A stretch of 47,955 bases of DNA from positions 1 through 47,955 of the IMG/VR virus record IMGVR_UViG_3300026320_000011, one strand, 5' to 3'. Position numbers and translations under genes: made by a program. The DNA is from a virus. Positions 3,608 to 47,088 of the stretch are shown here, one piece after another. The notes under the pieces are model-generated. The model saw nothing but the letters and a program-made list of their open reading frames with translations, was not told where the DNA came from and ran no database searches. Positions within the stretch are counted from its first letter, which is position 1, and each line of letters begins with the position of its first letter.

Positions 3608-4517
3608 ACGTACATGGACGAGCATGAGCGCCAAGCCTGCTCGCCCGGTCCTGCGGTGGCACGGTGGCAAGTGGTTATTGGCGCCGTGGATCATCGAAAA
3701 CCTGCCGCCTCATCGCGTCTACGTCGAGCCCTATGGGGGCGCTGCCTCGGTGTTGCTCCGCAAGTCGCGCTCCTATGCTGAGGTTTACAACGACCTGGAC
3801 GATGACGTTGTGAGTATGTTCGAAGTTCTGCGCGGTCCACGCGCTGCCGATCTCGTCGCCAGTCTTCGATTGACACCATACGCTCGCACCGAGTTTGCAT
3901 TGGCTTACAAGAAGACGAGCGATCCCATCGAGCGCGCCAGACGGCTGGTTATCCGATCATTCATGGGTTTTGGCTCTGACGGGCATAACGGCGCGCGGCC
4001 GACAGGCTTTCGCGCGACAAGTACCCGTTTGGGTACGACGCCGGCGCACGATTGGGTGAACTATCCTGATCACCTTGAGGCGATCATCCGGCGCTTGTCA
4101 GGCGTCGTCATCGAGAACCGTCCAGCGATTGAAGTGATGCGACAGAATGACACGGCGGAGACGCTATTCTATGTCGACCCGCCCTATGTGCATTCAACTC
4201 GGTCAAAGCCACAAAACTCGGCGCGGAAGAACTACACCCATGAAATGGACGACGCTGACCACGGGGCGTTGCTGGCCTATTTGGGCACAGTGCTGGGAAA
4301 GGTAGTCATCTCCGGTTACCCGCATCCGCTATACGATGATACGCTGAGGGGATGGAGACGCATCGAGCGTGAGGCCCTGGCCGATGGCGCTAGGCCGCGA
4401 ACTGAAGTGCTTTGGCTCAACGAGGCTGCTACCGAGCCCACGCTATTCTCGCCGCGTCCTCTATCCGACAGGAGCCCTCTTGCGACTGAGATGGGCGACG
4501 CCGGGATGAATAAATGA
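3600..4517 (+). CDS. Dam-type (D12 class) DNA adenine methylase
   Basis: 305 residues from a GTG at 3600, chosen because AGGAGG lies 6 nt upstream; an ATG at 3624 is an alternative. Motif LRWHGGKWLLAPWI (SAM binding) is near residue 18, VYVEPYGGAASVLL and EVYNDLDDDVV follow, and the catalytic LFYVDPPYV is at about residues 190-197. These are diagnostic of D12-class N6-adenine methylases. The last ~16 residues (DRSPLATEMGDAGMNK) are a tail encoded by a 50-bp element also present elsewhere in this genome. The stop overlaps the gcrA-like gene as ATGA, so methylase and methylation-sensing regulator are coupled. Confidence 0.92.
   Translation: MHKRTWTSMSAKPARPVLRWHGGKWLLAPWIIENLPPHRVYVEPYGGAASVLLRKSRSYAEVYNDLDDDVVSMFEVLRGPRAADLVASLRLTPYARTEFALAYKKTSDPIERARRLVIRSFMGFGSDGHNGARPTGFRATSTRLGTTPAHDWVNYPDHLEAIIRRLSGVVIENRPAIEVMRQNDTAETLFYVDPPYVHSTRSKPQNSARKNYTHEMDDADHGALLAYLGTVLGKVVISGYPHPLYDDTLRGWRRIEREALADGARPRTEVLWLNEAATEPTLFSPRPLSDRSPLATEMGDAGMNK
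4465..4514 (+). repeat. Dispersed tail element, copy A (coding)
   Basis: A 50-bp segment encoding the C-terminal DRSPLATEMGDAGMNK of the Dam-type methylase. It matches 39897-39946 (minus strand) at 44 of 50 bases, including an identical 23-base stretch, and 9191-9241 less closely with a one-base insertion. Confidence 0.85.
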
Positions 4518-4960
4518 CCTCCTGGCTTCCTTCCGAAGATCATACCGCAAAGGCCCTGTGGGAATCCGGCAGGACCGCAAGCGAGATCGCGAAGGTCAAC
4601 GGTCGCACGCGGAATGCGGTGATTGGGAGGCTTTCCAGGCTCGGCTGTACGCGCTCCGATCCTGACCGCCGGTCTAATCTGCGCCGTCTCACTGGCGGCC
4701 GCTTTCACAAGCCCAAGGCCCACGCTAAGCCCAAGCCTCCGAAGATCAAAGCCCAGAAACCAGAGCTCGTCATCATGGAAAGCCAACCGCCTCACTACTC
4801 GCTCAATCTCCGCCTTACCGAGCTCCGTCCGCACATGTGTAAGTGGCCTACGGGCTATACGACGGAGTACACGTTTTGCGGAGCGCCGACCGATGGTGTC
4901 TATTGCCAGGCGCATCGGCGTCTCGCGGTGGTTCCGCCGAAGCAGAAGCGTGCTGCGTGA
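4514..4960 (+). CDS. gcrA: GcrA-family cell-cycle regulator
   Basis: 148 residues. The N-terminal helix-turn-helix (AKALWESGRTASEIAKVNG and TRNAVIGRLSRLG, residues 11-43) is the GcrA DNA-binding signature. A basic Lys/Pro linker follows, then the conserved C-terminal CKWPTGY...FCGAPTDGVYCQAHRR. In Caulobacter, GcrA binds sigma70 RNA polymerase and activates promoters carrying methylated GANTC. A phage copy next to two adenine methylases and near a cytosine methylase could redirect host transcription or regulate phage genes by methylation state (inference). The start overlaps the Dam stop (ATGA) and the stop overlaps the GIY-YIG gene start (GTGA). Confidence 0.9.
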   Translation: MTSWLPSEDHTAKALWESGRTASEIAKVNGRTRNAVIGRLSRLGCTRSDPDRRSNLRRLTGGRFHKPKAHAKPKPPKIKAQKPELVIMESQPPHYSLNLRLTELRPHMCKWPTGYTTEYTFCGAPTDGVYCQAHRRLAVVPPKQKRAA

Positions 4961-4992
4961 GGCCGCTCGCCGTCGATCTTTTCTCAGGCCTG
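4957..4992 (+). repeat. Fossil of C5-methylase 5' end
   Basis: Twelve codons that duplicate 5559-5594. Nine of the 12 residues are identical, two are conservative (V/M, V/I) and one differs (S/V). Only three codons are base-identical; most differences are in third positions. The duplicate therefore diverged as coding sequence, or came from a related phage, rather than arising as a recent direct repeat. Confidence 0.85.
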
Positions 4993-5562
4993 GCCTACCT
5001 CATCACCTGCCGTGTGAATGGTCGACAGTACGTCGGGATCACTGGCCGCACGCTTCGTCAACGATGGAAGGAGCATATCTCCGATGCGCTACTTCGCCCG
5101 AAGAGGAGTGCGCTTGGGGCGGCGATCCGCAAATACGGGGCCGATCAATTCGCCATCGAGCCGATCTTCAGCGCGTTTTCGTGGACCGACCTCTGTATTG
5201 CTGAACGGATGCTCATCGAGCAGCATGAGACGCTCAAGCCGCATGGCTACAACTTGTCGCCTGGCGGCGAAGGCAACTTGGGGATCAAGCGCTCAGACGA
5301 GACTAGAGCGCGCCTTCGTGCTGGCCGTCTAGGCAAGCGCCACACTGCTGAGACTAAGGCGCATATGTCTAGCGCGAAGATGGGTATCTCGCAGAACGTG
5401 GGCGCAGCCAACGGTGGCGCCAAGTTGACAGATAGCCAAGCGCGCGAGGCAAAGCGCCTCCTGAGGGCTGGCATTAAGCAGCGTGTCGTCGCTCGTCAGT
5501 TTGGCATCTCCTACACGGCGGCTTGGAAGATCGCGAATGATCTGAAGTGGGCGCACCTATGA
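4957..5562 (+). CDS. GIY-YIG homing endonuclease fused to a C5-methylase start fossil
   Basis: 201 residues from a GTG at 4957 that overlaps the gcrA stop. Residues 1-12 (VRPLAVDLFSGL) are the start of a C5-methylase, nearly the same as the intact one at 5559 (MRPLAIDLFVGL). Straight after comes the GIY-YIG nuclease fold: AYLITCRVNGRQYVGITGRTLRQRWKEHI (the GIY and YIG positions are AYL and YVG, with the catalytic R in TLRQRW) and an E at EQHETLKPHGYN. The middle has NUMOD-like SDETRARLRAGRLGKRHTAETKAHMS, and the C-terminus is an HTH (RVVARQFGISYTAAWKIANDLKWAHL). It is a free-standing mobile endonuclease inserted between gcrA and its target methylase. Confidence 0.9.
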   Translation: MRPLAVDLFSGLAYLITCRVNGRQYVGITGRTLRQRWKEHISDALLRPKRSALGAAIRKYGADQFAIEPIFSAFSWTDLCIAERMLIEQHETLKPHGYNLSPGGEGNLGIKRSDETRARLRAGRLGKRHTAETKAHMSSAKMGISQNVGAANGGAKLTDSQAREAKRLLRAGIKQRVVARQFGISYTAAWKIANDLKWAHL

Positions 5563-6443
5563 GACCGCTGGCTATAGATTTGTTCGTGGGACTCGGCGGT
5601 TGGTCTGCCGGCTTAGTCGCTGCGGGTTGGCGCTCGGTCGGCTTCGATCTCGAAAACATGTTCGAGGTTCTCAACGAGCCAATGCCTGAGCATTTCAGCC
5701 TCGTGATCCAAGACGTTCGGACGCTTCATGGTAGCCAGTTTAAGGACGCGCAATTGCTTGTCGGGTCGAGTCCATGCACCAAGTATTCGTATATGGCTAT
5801 GCCCTGGCAACGCGCGAAAGCACTTGCCGCTTGGTATGAGGAAGAACCCTCGCGCCAAGTCCAGTTGAATGAACTCTTTGACGCTCAGTTTAGGATTCAG
5901 CGCGAAGCCAGCGAGGCTGCTGGCCGACACATTCCGATGGTCGTGGAAAATGTCAGGGGCGCTCAGCGGTGGGTAGGCAGGGCGAGAGCGAATTTCGGGA
6001 GTTACTATCTGTATGGCGACGTGCCGGCGCTCATGCCGATCGTTCAGCGCACCATGAAGAATGTCGACGGCGGCAGCTGGTTCGGTCTGAATCCCGATGG
6101 CTCGCCGGGGGCGCTCAACAACGCGCGCGATGGTCGCAAGACGAACGGCGACATTCCGCACATTCGAACCGGCGCACGTTCCACGCCGCACCTGACCAAC
6201 GCCGCCGAGCATAGGGACGTTAGGGCATTCGATGACGCCTTTGCGCCCTCCGATGGCCGCAAGGGCGCTGGCTACGCCTGGTTCAAAAAGGGGACCGGCG
6301 CATGGGCGCGCGATCCTGTGAGCGCCGCTGGTTCGCATGGCTCGCCGCGCCGCAAGGCCGCTTCCGCCAAGATCGCCAAGATACCGTTCACCCTCGCCCA
6401 TTGGATCGGGAAAACCTGGTTTCCGATGACGGAGGCCGCATGA
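5559..6443 (+). CDS. DNA C5-cytosine methyltransferase
   Basis: 294 residues from the ATG at 5559 (ATGA overlap with the GIY-YIG gene). Motif I is DLFVGLGGWSAGL (residues 7-19, SAM binding). The catalytic Pro-Cys is VGSSPCTKYS with Cys73, and motif VI is MVVENVRG with Glu130. The C-terminal ~150 residues contain many Gly/Asn-rich loops (GGSWFGLNPDGSPGALNN) and a final KIPFTLAHWIGKTWFP. It would methylate cytosine C5, probably for protection against restriction. It is the apparent target of the upstream mobile endonuclease. Confidence 0.88.
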   Translation: MRPLAIDLFVGLGGWSAGLVAAGWRSVGFDLENMFEVLNEPMPEHFSLVIQDVRTLHGSQFKDAQLLVGSSPCTKYSYMAMPWQRAKALAAWYEEEPSRQVQLNELFDAQFRIQREASEAAGRHIPMVVENVRGAQRWVGRARANFGSYYLYGDVPALMPIVQRTMKNVDGGSWFGLNPDGSPGALNNARDGRKTNGDIPHIRTGARSTPHLTNAAEHRDVRAFDDAFAPSDGRKGAGYAWFKKGTGAWARDPVSAAGSHGSPRRKAASAKIAKIPFTLAHWIGKTWFPMTEAA

Positions 6444-44182: not shown

Positions 44183-44565
44183 GCCGCCACCGGCTCTTGA
44201 AACCGCACGCCATGCCGCGCCCCGAACTCAGCAATCAACTCCATCAGATCGCCCATTTCGGAGACGCCGAGATCAGAGGACCGCATGCCGATGGGAACCA
44301 TCCCGCCGTCTTCGTCGGGCATCCACCGCATGCGCTTGAGCGCGTGCATGAAGTAATCTTTCCAATCATCCGCGCTATAGCGTTGACCATGCCAATCAAC
44401 GGTGCGCGCGACCTCGGTAAGCATCGCCCACATGCGATCGTTCTGTGGAATGGTCCGCTTGGATTCCTTTAACTCGAACCGCGTGCCCGCCGGGGCCTTC
44501 ATGACCCAGGTGCAGGCACGTTGGCGCTCGACGGACCCGTTGAGAATGATGGTCGCTCGGCTCAT
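44179..44565 (-). CDS. ninB: NinB/Orf-like recombination protein
   Basis: 128 residues. FELKESKRTIPQNDRMWAMLTEVARTVDWHGQRYSADDWKDYFMHALKRMRWMPDEDGGMVPIGMRSSDLGVSEMGDLMELIAEFGARHGV is the NinB family pattern (SKRTIPQN..MWA.L...A..V.W.G.RYS..DWK..F). NinB/Orf substitutes for RecFOR and assists single-strand annealing. It is part of the ERF-YqaJ-NinB set. Confidence 0.85.
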   Translation of the reverse strand: MSRATIILNGSVERQRACTWVMKAPAGTRFELKESKRTIPQNDRMWAMLTEVARTVDWHGQRYSADDWKDYFMHALKRMRWMPDEDGGMVPIGMRSSDLGVSEMGDLMELIAEFGARHGVRFQEPVAA

Positions 44566-45197
44566 GCTGCGCGCTCATAGCGTTGCGTCAAGGCTGCGAT
44601 CTTCGCCTCGACCTCGGCGAGGAACAGACGCACTTCCCGCTCCAGCTCGGCGATCATGGCGTTGTCGCGGGGCATGCGCTGGACAAACAGCGCCATGGAT
44701 TCAGGGAGCCTGGGATCGAAGCTGGCGAAGTCGCACCAGGCCCGGCCGGTGCAGGCTAGCTGCCACATCATCTGTGTGACGTACTTGCCCGGAACCGACT
44801 GGCCCAGCAAGGTATCGATGTGTGTACTCGTTTGGGGACATTTAATCTCAACTAGCCCGTCGTGCCCCACAAGGCCATCAGGACTGGCGCCGGACATGCC
44901 GATGATAGGATGGTCCGCGAAGCCGATCTCAGCCACCACGGCGTCTGTGTAGAACGCATAAGCGGCGCGGGCGTTGGGCTCCTGTTCATTTCCCCATTGC
45001 ATCGCGGCGTTACTGAAACTGACAGCGGGCACGCCCGTCAGGCGCTCGGCGACCAGCTCGGCCATGTAGTTGGTGCGCGAGGCGCTTGGACCGCTTTTAG
45101 TCTTAGCCATCACGTCAGCCACGCGGGAGGCAGTGACCTTGCCGATTCTGGCCCTCAGCCATTCCTCGGTTCCCTGTTGAAGTTCAAGATTGGACAC
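44562..45197 (-). CDS. YqaJ/lambda Exo-type exonuclease
   Basis: 211 residues from a GTG at 45197 (GGAGG about 9 nt upstream; a GTG at 45206 is close). EEWLRARIGKVTASRVADVMAK, then GNEQEPNARAAYAFYTD and MSGASPDGLVGHDGLVEIKCPQ (D...E-x-K catalytic core of PD-(D/E)XK viral exonucleases), and KYVTQMMWQLACTGRAWCDFASF complete the YqaJ pattern. It would resect double-strand ends for the ERF annealing protein. The upstream HNH gene runs 14 bp into it. Confidence 0.88.
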   Translation of the reverse strand: MSNLELQQGTEEWLRARIGKVTASRVADVMAKTKSGPSASRTNYMAELVAERLTGVPAVSFSNAAMQWGNEQEPNARAAYAFYTDAVVAEIGFADHPIIGMSGASPDGLVGHDGLVEIKCPQTSTHIDTLLGQSVPGKYVTQMMWQLACTGRAWCDFASFDPRLPESMALFVQRMPRDNAMIAELEREVRLFLAEVEAKIAALTQRYERAA

Positions 45198-45750
45198 GGG
45201 TAACACCCTCCAAGGTATTGCGCTTGAGCCGCTGATGGGCGACTCCTTTGGTCAATCCAATCAGTGCGGCATAGTCCACAAGCGCCATCGTTCCGGCTGG
45301 CGTATCAACCACGGTCAGATCGACACGATTATGCGATTGCTCACGGGGCGTGGCCCAGCGGACGTTGCCTGGTTCATAGCCCTTGCGGCCATCAATGCGA
45401 TCAAGCGTAGTTCCGTTGGGACGTGCGCCGATGTGGGCGAAGAACGCTGGGAACGATCGACGCCATTCGTCGCAAACATGAATTCCTCGCTCGCCATAGC
45501 GAGGGTAATCCTTGTGGTTCGGGTTGCCGCAGCGGCCAATCATGGCGATCCATGAGCTGTATTCGCGCGTCTCACGCATCCCGTGTGTTCTGTTATCCGG
45601 TTTCACACAGCCGCATGATTGCGTGTAGCCATTCCGAACACGGCTTCTCACGATCACTTTCTCTGTCCCGCAGGCGCAGCGATACAGAGCAAGCCGATGA
45701 CCGTCTGGAGAACGCCTTTCCAGAACGCGGATCATTGTGAGCTTCTGCAT
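45184..45750 (-). CDS. HNH/AP2-type homing endonuclease between ERF and YqaJ genes
   Basis: 188 residues. An N-terminal zinc-like RYRCACGTEKVIVRSRVRNGYTQSCGCV-type segment (CACG...SCGC) and CGNPNHKDYPRYGERGIHVCDEWRRSFPAFFAHIGARPNGTTLDRIDGRKGYEPGNVRWATPREQSHNR form the HNH family common in phages (Y-G-R/G-I-x-V-C-x-x-W, D-R-I, N-x-R-W-A). It splits the recombination cluster, overlapping both neighbours by a few bases. Its last codons lie over the YqaJ ribosome-binding site. Confidence 0.85.
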   Translation of the reverse strand: MQKLTMIRVLERRSPDGHRLALYRCACGTEKVIVRSRVRNGYTQSCGCVKPDNRTHGMRETREYSSWIAMIGRCGNPNHKDYPRYGERGIHVCDEWRRSFPAFFAHIGARPNGTTLDRIDGRKGYEPGNVRWATPREQSHNRVDLTVVDTPAGTMALVDYAALIGLTKGVAHQRLKRNTLEGVTRVQS

Positions 45751-46484
45751 CAGCGGCCGCGCTTCTTTTCGAGGGCCGCCAAAGCCGCCCTGTATTTGCT
45801 TGCCGGAATCTCCGAAATGCTCGGCGACCGCATGTAGTTCAGGAAGGCGTCGCGGTTCGCGCCCACGTCCTCCATGAGCGCCTGAATCTCGGCGGCCTCG
45901 TCCGTCGTCACACGCTCGCCGGCGCGGGGATCGTTGCCGTCTGTGTCTTCTCCCACGGCGATGTTGAAAATGAGCTTCAGCAGATAGCGTTGGCCGTAGC
46001 TCATGGCCGCACCGGCGGCGTGTGTTTTGGTCATCACGTCGCCGCCCTTCGCGCCCTTGCCATCGGCTGGCATATCGACGTGGTAAGGCTCGGTGTGGCC
46101 ATCGCGGTGGCGGACCTTGCAGGCGACGCGGATATGGTCGGCCGGTGCGCCGTCAGCGGTGTTGAAGCTGAGCGAGAAGCCATGGCGGGAATAGACCGGC
46201 CGAACCTCGCGGTCGAGCGCCGGATAGCTGGCGTATTTGCTGCGGGTCTGCGGGTTGTCGGCGTTGGCCGCGACGGGTCGCAACTCGGCCTGGGCGAGGT
46301 TCATGGCGTCGCTGAACGACTGTTCCGCCGAGCGGGCCTGCAATCGCTCGTGCATCGCCATCAACCGTTCCAGCTTCTCGATGTCGATGCTAGGATCACG
46401 GGCGGCGCGATCGATGATCGCCATGACCGATGAAGCGTCGGCTGGCACGATTTCGGCGGTCTGTTGGGGTGCGATAGCGTTCAT
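45750..46484 (-). CDS. ERF-family single-strand annealing protein
   Basis: 244 residues from the ATG at 46484 (GGAGAGGAAG upstream). A longer frame opens at 46586. Core: SAEQSFSDAMNLAQAELRPVAANADNPQTRSKYASYPALDREVRPVYSRHGFSLSFN, then CKVRHRDGHTEPYHVDMPADGKGAKGGDVMTKTHAAGAAMSYGQRYLLKLIFNIAVGEDTDGN, the ERF signature (G.A.SY..RYL...F.I...ED.DGN). It binds ssDNA and pairs complementary strands in phage recombination and replication. It works with the YqaJ-type exonuclease and NinB in the same operon. Confidence 0.9.
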   Translation of the reverse strand: MNAIAPQQTAEIVPADASSVMAIIDRAARDPSIDIEKLERLMAMHERLQARSAEQSFSDAMNLAQAELRPVAANADNPQTRSKYASYPALDREVRPVYSRHGFSLSFNTADGAPADHIRVACKVRHRDGHTEPYHVDMPADGKGAKGGDVMTKTHAAGAAMSYGQRYLLKLIFNIAVGEDTDGNDPRAGERVTTDEAAEIQALMEDVGANRDAFLNYMRSPSISEIPASKYRAALAALEKKRGR

Positions 46485-46563
46485 GACTTCCTCTCCAGCA
46501 AAGCCTTCAATGACCCGCCTTCCCGATTGAGGGTTCAACGTCTCCCAGAGAATGTTCTTGAGG

Positions 46564-47088
46564 TTAACCGCTGATAAGGCGTTCATAGTCTCGTCTCCTG
46601 AATTGCGACTTGTTGTAAGAGCCTTTGTCGATGTTGATCTGGTAGCGGCTGGAGCGCGCTAAGACCTCTTTGCCGATGTCCTCCACCAGCAGCGCCGCTT
46701 CCCAGAACGGCCCGAAGTCTTTCTTGGCGCGATAGGTCCGGTCGTAACCGCGTTTCCACGCGACGTATTCCGGCTGACGGCAATACTCGACGTGGCGCGG
46801 CATGATCTTGCGGCGTTCTACGGCGGCTTTCACCGGATCGTATGTGCGCTGAAAATAGGCGGCCTTCTCAGCCCTCAACCGTTCGCGGTTGACCTCCCGG
46901 TATTGGCGGTCATAGTCGGCCTTGAGCGTGCGTTTGACGGGCTCGGCGAGCAGTTCCTTGCGACGGCCAACACCGGCGCACACGCGGCCACAGTAGAGCG
47001 TCGCGTCCTTGGCCTTAGCGCGGTTGATGGCGCCGTTCTCGATGAATACGCCGAAGCCGCAGACGGGACAGAACACGAGCGACTTCAC
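46564..47088 (-). CDS. Hypothetical Zn-ribbon protein
   Basis: 174 residues from a GTG at 47088. N-terminal FCPVCGFGVFIENG...LYCGRVCAGVGRRKE carries two Cys pairs (C-x2-C and C-x3-C) of a zinc ribbon. The rest is very basic, Arg/Lys/Tyr-rich and helical (YDRQYREVNRERLRAEKAAYFQRTYDPVKAAVERRK). No HNH catalytic residues are visible. A DNA-binding role is plausible but unproven. Confidence 0.65.
   Translation of the reverse strand: MKSLVFCPVCGFGVFIENGAINRAKAKDATLYCGRVCAGVGRRKELLAEPVKRTLKADYDRQYREVNRERLRAEKAAYFQRTYDPVKAAVERRKIMPRHVEYCRQPEYVAWKRGYDRTYRAKKDFGPFWEAALLVEDIGKEVLARSSRYQINIDKGSYNKSQFRRRDYERLISG

Follow-up and report, generated by a model that had tools for sequence, protein, structure and literature searches.

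The stretch analysed, called the window below, comprises the 47,955 bases of a virus record. Genes of the MT-A70, D12-type methylase and GcrA types are located upstream of an open reading frame of the GIY-YIG family. The GcrA-like gene (4514..4960, + strand; Pfam GcrA, E=9e-21) overlaps with its stop codon the GTG start of this frame (GTGA), which runs from GTG at 4957 to TGA at 5562 (+) and whose own stop overlaps the ATG of a C5-cytosine methyltransferase gene (ATGA; 5559..6443, +). The first 12 codons of the endonuclease frame (4957..4992, +; VRPLAVDLFSGL) are, judged by profile score and by comparison with relatives, the first 12 codons of the resident C5-methylase, now serving as the endonuclease N-terminus; we refer to them as the fossil. 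The methylase itself opens with a restored start (5559..5594, +; MRPLAIDLFVGL), which is taken to be foreign or recoded from comparison with relatives and from codon use across the set of loci. The inserted DNA between the two (4993..5558, +) consists entirely of endonuclease coding sequence. The overlap of the GcrA stop with the fossil GTG implies that the displaced methylase start had been translationally coupled to GcrA.

Judged by domain criteria, the frame encodes a GIY-YIG homing-type endonuclease, whose cleavage activity and mobility are inferred only. It matches PHROG 314 (E=2e-28) and TIGR01453, the model of group I intron endonucleases (69 bits against a cut-off of 56, from residue 14 onward). 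A GIY-YIG domain covers residues 13-96 (PF01541, E=1e-9) and a NUMOD3 motif residues 126-143 (PF07460, 22.2 bits, over the 20.4 cut-off), followed by a helix-turn-helix-like region at about residues 156-192 with C-terminal matches under the Pfam cut-off. Alignment of three GIY-YIG relatives reveals conserved Y14, Y25, G27, R36, H40, E83 and N99, with R36, E83 and N99 invariant among the three, so that the catalytic-residue criterion for the family is met. As the GIY-YIG profiles begin at residue 13-14, the first 12 residues lie outside the GIY-YIG domain. Other GIY-YIG proteins lack these residues, whose occurrence in unrelated family members would have refuted the initial annotation of this locus: the nearest relative, at locus L185, starts MFQAYLITC. 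The enzyme at locus L049 starts MTPLAFSAYLVTC, itself a shorter methylase-like start.

Between positions 4400 and 6500 of the window, Rfam returned nothing for introns at E<=1, and in 11 related loci no intron reached the gathering threshold. Given these searches and an insert that is wholly coding, the reading as a group I or II intron was dropped; the criterion for a group I intron endonuclease, residence in a self-splicing intron, is not met by the window gene.

The methyltransferase is recognised by Pfam DNA_methylase (PF00145, E=1.6e-6; 28 bits against a cut-off of 22), and its translation contains LFVGLGG (motif I), SSPC and VVENV, which satisfies the C5-methyltransferase criterion of FxGxG in motif I plus catalytic PC and ENV motifs and leaves activity to inference. 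It has hundreds of viral relatives. Its motif IV reads SSPCTK, compared with SPPCQ in most of them, an unusual sequence beside the catalytic cysteine. Elsewhere in the window, a free-standing HNH gene of the sense-HNH type described below (45184-45750, -) has an ERF-like gene (45750-46586) on one side and on the other a gene for a YqaJ-like exonuclease (44562-45206), both neighbours being identified by reading their translations. No fossil start or end was recognised at this HNH gene.

A codon-by-codon comparison of the two starts displays their relation at a greater level of detail. The fossil reads GTG AGG CCG CTC GCC GTC GAT CTT TTC TCA GGC CTG, and the restored start ATG AGA CCG CTG GCT ATA GAT TTG TTC GTG GGA CTC. 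They have nine residues in common (ten if both start codons are read as Met), and only CCG, GAT and TTC are identical at the base level. Six shared residues are synonymously recoded, two residues differ, and so do the start codons. These coordinates and counts agree with the initial annotation, which had described the endonuclease as opening with methylase-like codons. Homology between the fossil and the methylase ends at codon 12. Against a profile of the methylase 10-mer PLAIDLFCGL, built from 171 distinct relatives and used to scan 261 loci, the window fossil scores 30.3, compared with 9.4 for the best opposite-strand match outside methylases across all 261 loci. The likeness of the fossil to a methylase start is not due to chance.

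The initial annotation regarded the endonuclease N-terminus as a copy of the methylase start. The duplication is real, and its direction is better reversed. For each of 11 loci retaining both copies, we compared the two starts with those of the nearest uninterrupted methylases, as judged over codons 30-140. The native starts of these relatives were matched better by the fossil in 9 of 11 loci, with a tie at L246 and the reverse at L185. In the window, nucleotide identity to endonuclease-free relatives is 0.70 for the fossil and 0.57 for the intact start. This comparison had been proposed along with the annotation, and relatives unlike either copy would have spoken against it; the relatives resemble the fossil. 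Intact starts also diverge from relatives more than uninterrupted genes do, over codons 0-10 (p=2e-4), 10-20 (p=4e-5) and 20-30 (p=5e-3). Since the fossil is closer to native starts and the intact start is diverged, comparison with relatives identifies the fossil as the original start and the intact start as a newcomer from elsewhere.

How far the foreign part extends can be seen at loci with close relatives. Identity jumps near codon 20 in L088, L264 and L265, pointing at a mosaic boundary; between L264 and L105, for instance, 20, 18 and then 25 of 30 bases are identical in successive blocks of ten codons. In L221 and L185 the rise in identity occurs near codon 60. The intact genes of these five loci appear chimeric, and for the set of loci this evidence marks roughly the first 20 codons of the intact starts as foreign. 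No mosaic boundary is visible in the window, where sufficiently close relatives to reveal one are lacking. A start reading PLMIDLFAGLGGW, or a close form of it, is common to L117, L264 and L265, three loci with an antisense HNH insert. The same allele also occurs in the uninterrupted methylases L002, L065 and L173, without fossil or nuclease, so an allele of the donor type exists. These three were treated as donor-type alleles and not counted as fossil cases.

The profile scan of 261 loci, together with later searches, uncovered 12 more loci with a methylase start fossil (13 including the window), all viral or prophage. Their layout is the same, which supports two statements of the initial annotation, namely that the coding region of the endonuclease begins within a methylase start and that the methylase has been restored by a second start in different codons. 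In 10 of the 12 a nuclease gene lies between the fossil and the intact methylase; the remaining two carry a non-nuclease insert. In total, 11 of 13 inserts are nucleases, belonging to at least four unrelated groups. L049 carries a second GIY-YIG gene behind a shorter fossil, L164 a PD-(D/E)XK gene (PDDEXK_5, 6e-13), and L185 and L221 sense HNH genes (PHROG HNH, 2e-43 and 1e-51; L217-L219 contain the same element as L221). An antisense HNH gene is found in L088, L175, L117, L264, L265 and L266 (PHROG 1271 HNH, 9e-10 for L264). The two non-nuclease inserts are a radical-SAM-like gene in L246 (3058-3995; PHROG 9298, 2e-15), with a fossil of about 22 codons, and a 105-aa reading frame without family match in L098 (3489-3851). 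Almost every codon has changed between the fossil and the intact start of L246, and nearly the same 22 residues are encoded. Insert sizes range from 0.35 to 0.94 kb, mostly coding sequence.

The antisense HNH family is confined to this position as far as it was found. A scan of the viral collection returned five loci, all five at a methylase start beside a fossil; with L175, from a bacterial MAG assembly, all six known members are so placed. Structure prediction with AlphaFold gave models of low confidence (pLDDT 68 and 58), Foldseek gave no significant match for the HNH family, and known phages and plasmids contain no close relative of either the window methylase or the antisense HNH. In L266 (2992-3465) the antisense HNH is decayed; the fossil is kept, and the HNH 5' end and the methylase are lost. 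This locus is apparently an end stage of the element.

Fossil and insert together occur at the start of at least nine to about a dozen among ~235 distinct methylase relatives. The frequency is only approximate because L264 and L265 were first found via their nuclease. All related loci are metagenomic or come from draft assemblies, and two further viral scans yielded extra control methylases and no new fossil case. Two matches of the profile were set aside as chance: ALDLFCGT in L008, 2.4 kb away and in an unrelated frame, and a match at 8095 in L172, downstream of the methylase. A generic screen of other nuclease inserts for peptide duplications proved too noisy, with a random control as high as the matches; within that limit, it gave no convincing duplication at the GIY-YIG inserts that known phages carry in terL (PH15, BC611, K469, 1.244.A and VP-1), which lie inside the gene or split it. 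In L268 (Vibrio phage K469, 1-3154), L270 and L271 a GIY-YIG domain is located inside a frame annotated as terminase large subunit, and a second terminase-like frame comes after it; these represent either a split terminase or an unannotated intron.

The junctions cluster: 11 of the 12 full-length fossils break off in codons 6-9 of the 10-mer, which belong to methylase motif I. If ends were spread evenly over the gene, the probability of such clustering would be near 5e-20. This uniform model is crude, and longer fossils would be easier, not harder, to find. Locus L185 additionally carries a GIY-YIG gene at the 3' end of the methylase (4648-5295), and the last part of this gene is a displaced methylase C-terminus, SKARKAASAAIAKIPAPLARYIAQIYYP. 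The methylase itself has a different C-terminus, giving a mirror image of the 5' layout at the same locus as the 5' HNH insertion.

Codon choice offers a further view of the replacement starts. Over the first 20 codons, the commonest synonymous codon at each position is used with a frequency of 0.32 in intact starts and 0.52 in the controls, 217 non-redundant uninterrupted methylases (p=3e-5, 11 loci). Loci with the same nuclease family do not count as independent cases, so we also give collapsed tests, in which the deficit persists over six insert families (p=1e-3) and four nuclease families (p=0.02). Fossils are no different from controls (0.52 vs 0.54, p=0.64), nor do the gene bodies behind the intact starts differ (p=0.11). 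The shift over codons 10-20 (0.31 vs 0.53, p=3e-4) equals in strength that over codons 0-10 and fades at codons 20-32, a span on the order of a homing-endonuclease site. The isoleucine codon ATC, noticed after the fact, occurs in 0 of 10 intact starts, compared with 84 of 140 in controls and 6 of 8 in fossils. Between fossil and intact copies, 25 of 94 codons are identical, where codon usage predicts 38.4.

The window alone does not display this excess. Three of its nine shared degenerate codons are identical against 3.2 expected, and its use of modal codons puts it at the 14th percentile; L164 and L221 have no codon shift. The divergence that led the initial annotation to speak of a codon-diverged copy is thus genuine, but in the window it amounts to no more than ordinary usage predicts, and the evidence for excess recoding rests on the set of loci. 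Escape from cleavage through codon choice is likely for the class of loci as far as sequence can tell, and unproven for the window case.

These observations can be best explained by invasion of the 5' end of the C5-methylase gene by a free-standing GIY-YIG homing endonuclease gene at the codons of motif I (DLFxGL). An endonuclease would have cut the uninterrupted methylase at motif I, and a donor carrying the endonuclease gene directly upstream of a diverged methylase allele would have served for repair. On the right, homology within the methylase would have resolved the break, so that the first ~20 codons of the donor (about 60 in some loci) replaced those of the resident. On the left, the resident start would have found no match in the donor's upstream DNA and been joined directly to the insert, leaving it stranded as a fossil reaching up to the cut. 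In the window, this stranded start would lend the endonuclease its GTG start and the coupling to GcrA, and the methylase would regain a start coupled to the endonuclease stop. As the replacement start encodes the same protein in changed DNA, the gene would work and the site should escape cutting.

We hold this whole account, invasion at motif I with one-sided repair and a diverged replacement start, to be probable, with cleavage and resistance as inferred elements. The fossil, the insertion and its position, the foreign and atypically coded replacement in the set of loci, and the recurrence with unrelated nucleases are legible in the DNA itself. The one-sided repair step is a reconstruction, a working hybrid methylase is likewise inferred, and the window methylase is named as the target of its enzyme from the insertion position alone. 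Several observations count against the account: the inserts of L246 and L098 are not nucleases, meaning that recombination here does not always bring an endonuclease; L185 is an exception to the rule that fossils resemble native starts; the window lacks both an excess of codon differences and a relative near enough to reveal a mosaic; and the codon shift is missing from L164 and L221. A broader proposal, that several unrelated endonuclease families have converged on motif I as a homing site and independently evolved or captured a synonymously recoded 5' end of their own target, so that one recombination inserts, repairs and immunises, seems to us only slightly better supported than not.

The two non-nuclease inserts also leave room for recombination without any cutting, in which illegitimate exchange at a conserved sequence replaced the resident from motif I onward with a module of any gene plus a diverged methylase, nucleases being mere passengers. 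The ERF-like and YqaJ-like proteins of the window phage could support such recombination between diverged DNA; they could equally help homing. We regard this passive route as unlikely, as it accounts neither for the predominance of nucleases from at least four unrelated groups (11 of 13 inserts) nor for an antisense HNH family found nowhere else, and the junctions cluster within four codons. A narrower explanation, compatible with the homing account, concerns the codon shift only: in place of escape from cleavage, the shift would reflect the survival of those insertions whose flanking repeats differ so much that recombination cannot remove the insert. The shortage of identical codons between fossil and intact copies (25/94 vs 38.4) would fit, and direct repeats beside recombinase genes would be unstable, but the shift is equally strong in codons 10-20, mostly beyond the duplicated part, and this explanation remains possible but doubtful.

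The absence of a visible mosaic boundary in the window's intact gene would agree with an origin from tandem methylases, the endonuclease having replaced all of the first gene except its start and left the second copy unchanged. However, none of the loci keeps a trace of the body of a first methylase, inserts roughly match a single small gene in length, and intact genes look chimeric in L088, L264, L265, L221 and L185, which renders this origin very improbable. Finally, GIY-YIG restriction enzymes exist, and a nuclease adjoining a C5-methylase could in principle constitute a type II restriction-modification pair, with the methylase as partner. Such a pair would be expected to stay together, but most methylase relatives have neither fossil nor nuclease insert; NUMOD3 and the match to the model of group I intron endonucleases suit a homing enzyme, and the fossil would be left unexplained. 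We give this interpretation hardly any weight.

If the homing account is correct, it shows a way into the middle of conserved coding sequence for a free-standing homing endonuclease, which needs neither intron nor intein and leaves the gene unbroken, and it shows how immunity could be built in through synonymous change. It would account for the patchwork 5' ends of phage methylases and would supply sets of naturally occurring sites, some cut and some not, on which homing-endonuclease specificity could be measured. It also extends to phages, with independent replicates, a mechanism that we found described only in fungal mitochondria. In the open-access literature, no gene with a replaced end and a stranded fossil was found for phages; as subscription papers were mostly outside the search, the statement that the layout was previously described only in fungal mitochondria is provisional.

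Among phage systems, I-TevI/SegB-like GIY-YIG homing endonucleases (TIGR01453) share with the window enzyme a catalytic domain combined with NUMOD3; the window enzyme differs in being free-standing and in taking its start codon and first 12 residues from the invaded gene. In T4-like phages, the free-standing seg and mob homing endonucleases are intergenic or split a gene, as in Aeh1 nrdA and T4 gene 60, and illegitimate one-sided repair with microhomology has been described in T4 homing (PMC2988022). Immunity of the carrier is attributed to an altered target in free-standing homing (PMC12724721). To this extent the loci resemble one another, with intron-less GIY-YIG or HNH genes adjoining their target genes; the passages of PMC2988022 consulted mention no replaced gene end that left a fossil stranded.

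Closer parallels come from fungi. Inserts in Tremella predicted as introns contain N-terminal duplications (PMC7315562), and there too a foreign N-terminal homologue arrives with the mobile element, resulting in two N-terminal copies; those predicted introns measure about 2 kb, in contrast to phage inserts of 0.35-0.94 kb in which no intron was found. The mobile ORFs of fungal mitochondria, known from atp6 of Allomyces macrogynus and from atp6, atp9, cox2 and nad3 of Glomus sp., supply their gene with a foreign C-terminus, and the native C-terminus, now displaced, stays closest to relatives (PMC3630166). In both settings an endonuclease is inserted in a conserved gene along with a foreign gene end, and the two ends have low nucleotide but high protein identity. 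The criterion that the stranded native end be closer to relatives than the functional end is met by the window and by 9 of 11 loci. Replacement of the C-terminus as in the mitochondrial hybrids is not met in the window, with a 3' version only in L185; the phage and prophage loci mostly have the N-terminus replaced, and they differ further in the convergence of unrelated nucleases, some of them antisense, on one motif and in a measured codon shift.
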